Assembly (NCBI GenBank): GCA_021845905.1
Contig: JAJZVA010000003.1
Coordinates: 137,169 to 201,168 of the forward strand
From: Pseudomonadota bacterium
GTDB lineage: Bacteria; Pseudomonadota; Alphaproteobacteria; Micavibrionales; UBA2020
Length of the DNA: 64,000 nucleotides
Direction of reading: 5' to 3'
Shown here: positions 10,995-49,264 of the stretch, piece by piece
Layout: each line of letters starts with the position of its first letter
How positions within the stretch are numbered: position 1 is the first letter of the stretch
The notes under the pieces: model-generated
The model's input: only the letters and a program-made list of their open reading frames with translations
Told to the model about the DNA's origin: nothing
Database searches by the model: none
Position numbers and translations under genes: made by a program

Positions 10995-11088
10995 AACGCC
11001 GCCTCGTGCCTGCGTGTTGAAAGCTTTCGTTTTTCCATTCGAATGAAACCCGTTTACACTTGTGACGTTGCGGCATTTTTTGCGGCAA

Positions 11089-11260
11089 CCGGGGCTTGAT
11101 AATCCCGTACTGAACGGTGGCGTGACCGTATTCACGCCGCTTCTCCGCGCTTTCATGCCCGGGAGGCGGCGGCGTATGTCCAAGGTTCTGCCCAAAGGCC
11201 GTCGCGGTCGTTTCAGTACGGCTTATCAACTCCCGGCGCCAGAGAATCCTCTCTGGCGCC
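11089..11260 (+). ncRNA. Structured RNA element, copy 1 (candidate cis-regulatory leader)
   Basis: Long-range helix CCGGGGCTTGATAATCCCGTACTGAA / TTCAGTACGGCTTATCAACTCCCGG, inner hairpin GGCGTGA-CCGTAT-TCACGCC, 3' hairpin GGCGCCAGAGA-ATCC-TCTCTGGCGCC; second copy at 48835-49011 with compensatory changes. Confidence 0.75.
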
Positions 11261-11283
11261 ATCTTTATCAAGGGAGAAAGACC

Positions 11284-11457
11284 GTGCGCAAAGACGATAG
11301 CATCCACGCCAGGAACATGCAAAGCCTCGCGGAGGAACTCCGCCGCATGTCGCGGCTGGAGCCTCCCTATGATGTTTATTTCGCGGACGTTCCACCGCTG
11401 ACGCGCGGCATCCGGCACCTCGCCGCTTTCTATCTCGATGGAAGGGCGCGGCCCTGA
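11284..11457 (+). CDS. Small protein (57 aa) downstream of structured RNA element
   Basis: GTG start after AAGGGAGAAAGACC; VRKDDSIHARNMQSLAEELRRMSRLEPPYDVYFADVPPLTRGIRHLAAFYLDGRARP; related sequence at 49036-49225. Confidence 0.6.
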   Translation: MRKDDSIHARNMQSLAEELRRMSRLEPPYDVYFADVPPLTRGIRHLAAFYLDGRARP

Positions 11458-48112: not shown

Positions 48113-48327
48113 ATTCCGTCTCCTTTTTCGTCCTTGTGCCCCGGCTGATTGCTTTGACACGGTTGATTGCTTGCTATGTATTACTTTATGCAAACAAAGT
48201 TAAACAATGGTTAATATTGCATAATTTATTGTTATTGCTATATTTTCCGAAGCGAATCTATCCGGCTTTTTATGTTTTTTCGCCCGTTCCGCAAGGCAAA
48301 AAGCCGCTTTTCAGAAGGAGAGACGAC

Positions 48328-48744
48328 ATGCACGCCGTGACGACCGTAACAGAATCGGGCGAAGGGCTTTATACGCAAAACATCAACACGGCGGGACACG
48401 CGCTCATGGCGGACGAACCCGTCGATCTCGGCGGGCGCGATTTGGGCCCCGCGCCTTACGATTTGCTGCTGGCCGCGCTCGGCGCCTGCACGGCGATGAC
48501 TTTGCGCATGTACGCCAACCAGAAAAAGTGGGATTTGAAAAAGGCCAGCGTGACGCTCAGCCACGAAAAACGCACCGACGCGGAAAATAAAAAATTCGAC
48601 TTCATCACGCGCGAGATCGCGCTCGAGGGCGAGCTCGACGCGGCGCAACGCGCGCGGCTGCTCGAAATCGCCAACAAATGCCCCGTGCACAAAACCCTCA
48701 CCGGCGATATGCGCCCCGTGGTGGAAAGCCGTTTGGCGGAGTGA
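48328..48744 (+). CDS. OsmC family protein
   Basis: [33 protein letters not shown]...[13 protein letters not shown]. Confidence 0.9.
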
Positions 48745-48834: not shown

Positions 48835-49011
48835 CCGGGGCTTAAGAATCCCGCAATAACCGGTGACGTGACCGTATATCACGTCGCTTCTCCGCGTTTT
48901 TATTATGCCCGGGAGGTGGCGGCGCATGTCCAGAGCTTCGGCTTAAAGGCCGTCGCGGTCGTGTTACAGCGGCTTCTAAACTCCCGGCGCCAGAGAATCC
49001 TCTCTGGCGCC
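48835..49011 (+). ncRNA. Structured RNA element, copy 2
   Basis: Same architecture as 11089-11260: CCGGGGCTTAAGAATCCCGCAATAAC / GTTACAGCGGCTTCTAAACTCCCGG, GACGTGA-CCGTATA-TCACGTC, identical 3' hairpin GGCGCCAGAGAATCCTCTCTGGCGCC. Confidence 0.75.
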
Positions 49012-49035
49012 TTCTTCTAGAAAGGGAGCAAGACC

Positions 49036-49225
49036 GTGCGCACAGACGACAGCATCCACGCCAGGAACATGAAAAAACCTCGCCGAAGAACTCCGCCGCA
49101 TGTCGCGGCTGGAGCCGCCGTATGACGTCTGCTTCAAAAACGCGCCGGACATCTCGCGCGGCATCTGGCATCTCGCCGCCTTCTATCTCGACGGAAAAGA
49201 GCGGAATAAAAGCGACTTCCACTGA
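49036..49225 (+). pseudogene. Frameshifted copy of the 57-aa ORF of 11284-11457
   Basis: GTGCGCACAGACGACAGCATCCACGCCAGGAACATGAAAAAACC has one extra nucleotide (A6 run) relative to copy 1; downstream frame encodes MSRLEPPYDVCFKNAPDISRGIWHLAAFYLDGKERNKSDFH*. Confidence 0.6.
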
Positions 49226-49264
49226 CGGGTTGGCGCAGTTCACCCCCGCACGACGCTGCGGCCT

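Follow-up and report, generated by a model that had tools for sequence, protein, structure and literature searches.

An RNA element present in two diverged copies in the window (the whole 64,000-nucleotide stretch of DNA analysed here) very probably has a C4/sRNA-Xcc1-type architecture. Until now, C4 was viewed as an RNA of phage immunity, and sRNA-Xcc1, which has a separate Rfam entry, as an integron sRNA without kinship to it. Our analysis joins the two and extends them by a large branch that 92 of 142 genomes of one order carry, which indicates a so far overlooked alphaproteobacterial branch of a regulator described from phages and integrons. Most likely, judged by analogy with C4, the element is an RNase P-processed, C4-derived leader and antisense RNA that keeps accessory genes off. 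We also consider it rather probable that it serves as the leader of small accessory-gene cassettes and falls within a wide group of C4-type antisense RNAs.

Anatomy and covariation of the two copies

Both copies, at 11089–11260 and 48835–49011, were found where an earlier note on this sequence had placed them, and its claim of a diverged second copy holds, with 85% mean column identity in an alignment of about 370 bp. Compared with shuffled sequences, copy 1 folds with a z-score of −7.3 and copy 2, less markedly, with −3.9. All features described here lie on the + strand. In copy 1, a 5′ hairpin P0 (11067–11089, from a fold of 11064–11105) stands directly 5′ of H1; a hairpin in this place is also present in relatives and in phage P1, and its position equals that of the 5′ hairpin of the Rfam family c4-a1b1. 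The H1 hairpin itself (GGGG-CUUGAUAA-UCCC, 11091–11106) carries the segment a1 (UUGAUAA, 11096–11102) in its loop and is followed by the hypervariable segment b1 (GUACUGAA, 11107–11114). The next part, 11115–11138, is an H-type pseudoknot made of CGG (11115–11117) and the hairpin P3 (GGCGUG/CACGCC, 11119–11138), in which CCG at 11126–11128 of the P3 loop is the partner of CGG (pairs counted on alignment A2); the bases adjoining CGG and CCG covary in the alignment.

The predicted mature C4-like antisense domain spans 11157–11241. It is built on an acceptor-like stem (CCGGGAG/CUCCCGG, 11159–11165/11230–11236) with two arms, P5 (GCGGCGGC/GCCGUCGC, 11166–11205), whose apical region holds the conserved UAUGUCCA ... 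AAAGG, and P6 (GUCG/CGGC, 11207–11222), seen in the fold and with the stem variants GUCG/CGAC, GUUG/CAAC, GCUG/CAGC and CUAU/AUAG in the alignment. The partner of b1, b′ (UUCAGUAC, 11212–11219), sits in the P6 loop; a′ (UUAUCAA, 11223–11229), which pairs with a1, follows, and GCCA, an RCCA motif, stands at 11238–11241, 3′ of the acceptor-like stem. When 11155–11250 is folded alone, both arms appear, b′ lying in a loop and a′ staying unpaired, at a modest z-score of −1.96. An intrinsic-terminator hairpin (11235–11268, z −7.8) overlaps the RCCA motif; it contains the 3′ hairpin GGCGCCAGAGA-AUCC-UCUCUGGCGCC exactly as described earlier, and its U tract is weak in copy 1 (AUCUUUAU). Behind it lie a Shine-Dalgarno (SD) sequence GGGAG (11272–11276), which complements CUCCC of the acceptor 3′ strand, and the cargo, a GTG-start ORF of 57 aa (11284–11457) that has paralogues at genome copies L002–L004 and gave no match in a Pfam search.

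Copy 2 (48837–49011) scores 138.6 bits with R1, our covariance model of the window type. It has H1 at 48837–48852, b1 at 48853–48860, the acceptor-like stem at 48909–48915/48981–48987, b′ at 48963–48970, a′ at 48974–48980 and the terminator hairpin at 48986–49011. The SD GGGAG (49024–49028) precedes an ORF (49036–49125) that is frameshifted in an A6 run and has 29 aa as present. The same A6-run frameshift is common to the copy 2 ORF (49036–49230) and the ORF of genome copy L002, so that two of the four paralogues look broken or need slippage.

R1 was built from 18 sequences on a first structural model with a long outer helix (GGGG/CUCCC) and a hairpin (CUUCUCG/CGGGAGG). In these sequences 95.8% of the cells were paired, 23 of 46 pairs had changed on both sides, and the covariation score was 0.438 compared with 0.189 for shuffled and <0.10 for slid alignments. 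Double changes occurred at 8/8 pairs of b1/b′ and at three pairs of P5, the latter being paired in 100% of cells. After a comparison of 93 sequences we dropped the long outer helix in favour of H1 and the acceptor-like stem, because these pair in 89/93 and 88/93 relatives, respectively, covary, and remove conserved G-U pairs. H1 is a 4-bp stem of the form GGGG-8 nt-CCCC with the covarying variants GGAG/CUCC, GAGG/CCUC and UGGG/CCCA. The acceptor-like stem occurs as CCGGGAG/CUCCCGG, CUGGGAG/CUCCCAG, CCGGGUG/CACCCGG, CGGGGAG/CUCCCCG, CCGGAGG/CCUCCGG and others, with a pairing score of 13.59 for own strands against 10.87 for permuted ones. Among the core members, a1 and a′ score 13.18 (7.86 permuted) and b1 and b′ 13.47 (5.50 permuted); in copy 1, a1:a′ pairs at 7/7 and b1:b′ at 8/8 positions. 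RCCA follows the acceptor stem in 39/40 core members compared with a background of 4%, and a terminator consisting of a hairpin and a T-run is present in 39/40 core members and in 12/53 other members.

Together, the covariation in 18 and in 93 sequences supports selection on an RNA structure rather than a chance fold, as the earlier note had suspected, and its terminator-like 3′ hairpin is supported as well. The long closing helix that it had drawn survives in part. The arms with the double changes it listed are indeed present; the outermost CCGGG/CCCGG pairing is better described by H1 and the acceptor stem, and copy 2 has three unpaired positions instead of two, of which the TTGATAA arm holds one and the GTACTGAA arm the others. 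A mixed alignment of mature domains (A5) aligned too poorly for modelling.

The conserved AUG behind GGGAGG would allow another reading of the P5 region, in which translation of a six-codon ORF (MSKASA-like) opens the structure. Such a frame stands at the proper distance behind GGGAGG in 24/40 core members (11175–11200 and relatives), but the remaining 16/40 have other lengths, from 4 to >90 codons. Since the AUG is moreover missing from the sRNA-Xcc1 branch and what would serve as SD is itself a strand of the acceptor stem, we regard a leader-peptide attenuator as very improbable.

Kinship, distribution and cargo

An Rfam scan of the whole window gave no match at threshold. A known alphaproteobacterial leader family, which had been named as a possible home of the element, was thus not found at this level; speF, 6S, SRP and other Rfam leaders were excluded, appearing neither at threshold nor among matches with E up to 10, and a riboswitch or known-leader identity was rejected, with no Rfam match to support it. 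The best sub-threshold matches include sRNA-Xcc1 (RF02221; 22.6 bits for copy 1 and 21.3 for copy 2, curated cut-off 53) and c4-a1b1 (RF03163; 15.6 and 18.8 bits, full length 1–53, curated cut-off 46.7), at the expected place in both copies, which are paralogues and hence do not give independent matches. The C4 model (RF01695, curated score 45 bits) found no match in the window, and its best match in the genome (15.2 bits) lies elsewhere.

With the sRNA-Xcc1 model, 7/20 diverse members match over the full length and in register at 29.8–32.5 bits (cut-off 53); counting the two window copies beside these seven (E≤0.5), the matches amount to 9/20. Taken singly, the matches are weak, with E of about 0.1 to 0.4, and the argument lies in their recurrence in register: all 87 model positions are aligned, with the same secondary structure in both copies and in the matching relatives. 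We also searched the phylum sample with the Rfam sRNA-Xcc1 model and obtained matches in 58/398 genomes, 39 of them above cut-off. Upstream of these matches, beyond the 5′ end of the Rfam model, the same H1, b1 and GCGG plus hairpin are found, and R1 aligns to sRNA-Xcc1-type loci at all 145 positions including the unannotated 5′ halves, with E from 1e-5 upward. From the upstream H1, b1 and P3 and from this full-length alignment, the Rfam sRNA-Xcc1 entry seems to cover no more than the 3′ half of a larger, C4-like RNA. As P1 does, loci L119–L148 among the sRNA-Xcc1 matches have a terminator-like hairpin and T-run (GCGGUAUUUUUGUG) that separate b1 from the mature RNA. Against plasmids, the sRNA-Xcc1 consensus gave weak matches.

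The connection to C4 is seen in the P1 immI locus, which is annotated with a1 at 48255, b1 at 48269, c4 at 48343–48419, a2 at 48423, b2 at 48452 and icd at 48470. The window RNA has its parts in the order of this locus (a1-b1-c4-a2-b2), minus a2/b2. A search of P1 with R1 gave no match. We then used a second model, R2, which describes the 5′ half and for which sRNA-Xcc1-type and antirepressor-type loci were taken, with P1 and the window left out. The best match of R2 in 78 kb is the a1-b1-P3 hairpin part of P1 (E 2e-4), and in the window it matches copy 2 with E 0.006 and copy 1 with E 0.38. Of the features by which a C4 RNA is recognised, the window RNA has a′ and b′ complementary to upstream a1 and b1, and b′ in a hairpin loop with a′ between this hairpin and the acceptor 3′ strand (fold of 11155–11250); a second target a2/b2 at the SD of the next gene is absent from window-type leaders.

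In its own genome (2.42 Mb, 26 contigs), the RNA occurs in four copies with the small ORF, once with another ORF and as two fragments, besides four further, more distant relatives. At L006 (own genome, C11:22647) the RNA passes directly into the ORF body, and at L019 (G002, C180:2692) another RNA subtype precedes a related ORF; we take both for decayed or recombined copies. Searching with R1, we detected the RNA in 92/142 genomes of the order (Micavibrio relatives) with up to eight copies each, in 38/385 genomes of an even sample of the class and in 25/398 of the phylum sample. Further homologues and covariation, whose absence would have spoken against the element, are both at hand. Where records of relatives carry names, these denote Micavibrio and further alphaproteobacterial assemblies from metagenomes, and what is conserved beyond the own genome is the RNA (query about 1–162), not the ORF. 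Three rabbit-gut assemblies labelled Oscillospiraceae (L166, L168, L171) have the exact alphaproteobacterial core pattern, which would reflect mis-binned contigs or transfer. No near relatives were found in phage records, viral sequences gave a single matching contig, and plasmids gave four weak matches. The Shinella plasmid CP132318.1 (L117, 8426–8500) carries part of a related RNA, followed after 65 nt by a pair of a hypothetical and an HTH gene that looks like a toxin-antitoxin operon.

The start codon of the downstream gene follows the RNA at a median of 49 nt, which supports the proposed connection between RNA and ORF. The cargo proteins are mutually unrelated. In relatives they comprise antirepressors (Rha, Bro-N, AntA, P22_AR_N, ORF6N), sigma factors, XRE regulators, HNH, GIY-YIG and PD-(D/E)XK nucleases, some PADLOC candidate defence families (PDC-S11, PDC-S26) and, judged by eye, many lipoproteins. 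Among the few recurrent cargo families are near-identical 95-aa proteins (VELDPDVDDEAPTGD...) at L093, L092 and L114 in different genomes. Near an antirepressor-type member, L106:2768–3128 holds five evenly spaced, sub-threshold CRISPR-DR9-like repeats.

The apical region of P5 is among the most conserved parts of the RNA, and a terminator stands before the SD in 39/40 core members. Both would suit an attenuator in which the invariant UAUGUCCA/UAAAGG loop binds a ligand or protein and decides on termination. The downstream genes, however, have no common function, unlike a riboswitch regulon, and the sRNA-Xcc1 branch has another apical loop (AAUACAA...GGGGAAUA) yet keeps the antisense parts. 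We saw no anti-terminator pairing with the terminator strand and no sign of a ligand-binding role, so that a sensing attenuator seems quite improbable.

Comparison with sister genomes shows what surrounds the element. At the copy 1 site the flanking genes adjoin in G004 with nothing between them, and G002 has a different gene there; the copy 2 site is occupied by another RNA subtype and a related ORF in G002 and by other genes in G004 and G005. Cassettes thus turn over at intergenic sites that stay fixed. Such gain and loss, together with the residence of sRNA-Xcc1 in integron cassettes (PMC12444791), could also point to a feature of the DNA, namely a recombination or transposition end or an attC-like hairpin. 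This we judge extremely improbable, given the single orientation, the fixed distance upstream of SD and ORF, the GU pairs, the T-run terminator, and a homology that spans from the upstream region to the end of the ORF with no flanking repeats noticed.

Target sites and proposed mechanism

In sRNA-Xcc1-type loci, complements of b′ and a′ recur in the leader of the next gene (own 7.05 nt vs 5.43 permuted, p 0.0002). These a2/b2 segments mostly touch the ribosome site, for example in CCGAAAA-GGAG-CAACAAG-ACC-AUG. In antirepressor-type loci, the a/b repeat is found at the start of the next gene (own 7.75 vs 5.60 permuted, p 0.0002). For window-type (core) leaders we detected no a2/b2 (5.14 vs 5.06 permuted, p 0.33; other tests p 0.85 and 0.21). 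Core leaders have the SD GGGAG in 21/36 cases compared with 3/45 background SD sites, and the contrast of GGGAG to AGGAG between core leaders and background gives a Fisher p of 0.0005. Additionally, where the acceptor 3′ strand changes, the SD changes with it (p 0.006; all members p 0.0002). A GGGAG ribosome site that covaries with the acceptor 3′ strand suggests that the CUCCC of the RNA can cover the SD; a functional use of this pairing would build on a 5-nt complementarity in sequences that are related to each other. We rejected a complementarity of the leader to the H1 loop, which looked suggestive for the four own-genome copies only and did not hold in the family (p 0.16–0.22). The upstream promoter signal is weak, with a mean best score of 7.92 compared with 7.53 for shuffled sequences.

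We propose that a single transcript would carry a decoy, made of a1 in the loop of H1 with b1 behind it, and downstream the acceptor-like antisense domain ending in RCCA. RNase P would cut 5′ of the acceptor stem, predicted at about 11156/11157, by transfer of the cleavage known from the C4 of P1; the resemblance of this stem to a tRNA acceptor and the RCCA motif are features of an RNase P substrate. The freed RNA of the classical branches would bind a2/b2 over the downstream start site and block translation. The window branch would have lost a2/b2; here most transcripts may end at the intrinsic terminator right behind the RNA, leaving expression of the downstream gene low, and upon read-through the CUCCC strand could pair with the GGGAG ribosome site and keep the gene off. 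The decoy a1/b1 would determine the conformation that the RNA adopts and prevent cross-reaction between sister copies. We hold this cis-silencing account of the window type tentatively, as somewhat short of probable. The choice between a cis leader and an sRNA that the earlier note had offered is a false one, as the anatomy is that of a leader carrying a C4-type antisense RNA; the ligand-binding variant of its leader found no support.

The mature domain could also act in trans as an immunity RNA against incoming phages or mobile elements with matching a2/b2, the ORF being mere cargo. C4 is indeed the immunity RNA of P1/P7 (PMC5320573), b and a are hypervariable between copies, relatives control the phage antirepressors Rha, Bro-N, AntA and ORF6N, and some cargo matches the PADLOC candidates mentioned above. 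A search of the own genome for a second exact a..b site of copy 1, on the other hand, returned the element itself only, the tight coupling to the downstream SD favours a role in cis, and phage records hold no near relative, with one viral contig matched. Altogether we consider trans immunity unlikely. A broader version appears rather doubtful to us, in which bar-coded, self-contained C4-type RNAs of alphaproteobacteria have lost their cis target, tell self from foreign mobile elements in trans by a hypervariable a/b address, and spread in cassettes of promoter, RNA and gene, the accessory or defence genes being exchangeable.

Comparison with C4, IsrK and sRNA-Xcc1

The kinship with C4 leads to predictions for sRNA-Xcc1: the Rfam family would represent only the 3′ half that RNase P releases from a longer transcript, and its target would be the mRNA directly behind it. 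More generally, accessory genes would travel together with their own antisense off-switch. We found no publication that unites sRNA-Xcc1 with C4; the single one that names both annotates them separately.

The C4 of P1 is cut from its leader by RNase P and blocks translation via a′/b′ (PMC5320573). With the C4 of P1/P7 (RF01695, RF03163, clan CL00128), the window type shares an upstream part of a 5′ hairpin, a1 in the H1 loop, b1 and GCGG plus hairpin, and a downstream part of a two-armed acceptor-like stem, b′ in a loop, a′ and an RCC(A) end. It differs from C4 by an acceptor stem of 7–9 bp instead of about 17, a P5 arm with a conserved internal loop, a terminator placed 3′ of the antisense domain, the lack of a2/b2, cargo other than icd/ant, and the lack of an Rfam match at threshold. 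By their description, the Group 1 C4-like sRNAs of Acinetobacter baumannii are likewise multi-copy chromosomal C4 relatives with variable specificity loops, and the RNA-seq read pattern of the C4-like RNAs there is one of 5′ processing at GG (PMC5320573); the Group 1 sRNAs are, however, reported as P1-like C4 recognised by Rfam and belong to another bacterial class.

At an antirepressor locus of Gifsy-1, one promoter gives both the short RNA IsrK and a read-through mRNA (PMC4825925), hence the same kind of locus, an sRNA plus the read-through mRNA of an antirepressor operon. The Rfam model isrK (RF01394) hits the a1-b1-terminator part of P1 with 35 bits, below cut-off. Compared with IsrK, the window type has no terminator at the IsrK/P1 place and no antirepressor. 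Finally, sRNA-Xcc1 is known as an integron-cassette sRNA upstream of symE in Xanthomonas (PMC12444791, PMC2996969); the window copies sit singly between ordinary genes. Both types share the acceptor stem, the two arms and a′ in register, as well as H1, b1 and P3 in the 5′ half. Beyond the differing P5 apical loop, they are set apart by a2/b2, which sRNA-Xcc1 loci keep and the window type is without, and by the terminator-like hairpin, which lies 5′ of the mature RNA in sRNA-Xcc1 loci and 3′ of it in the window type.
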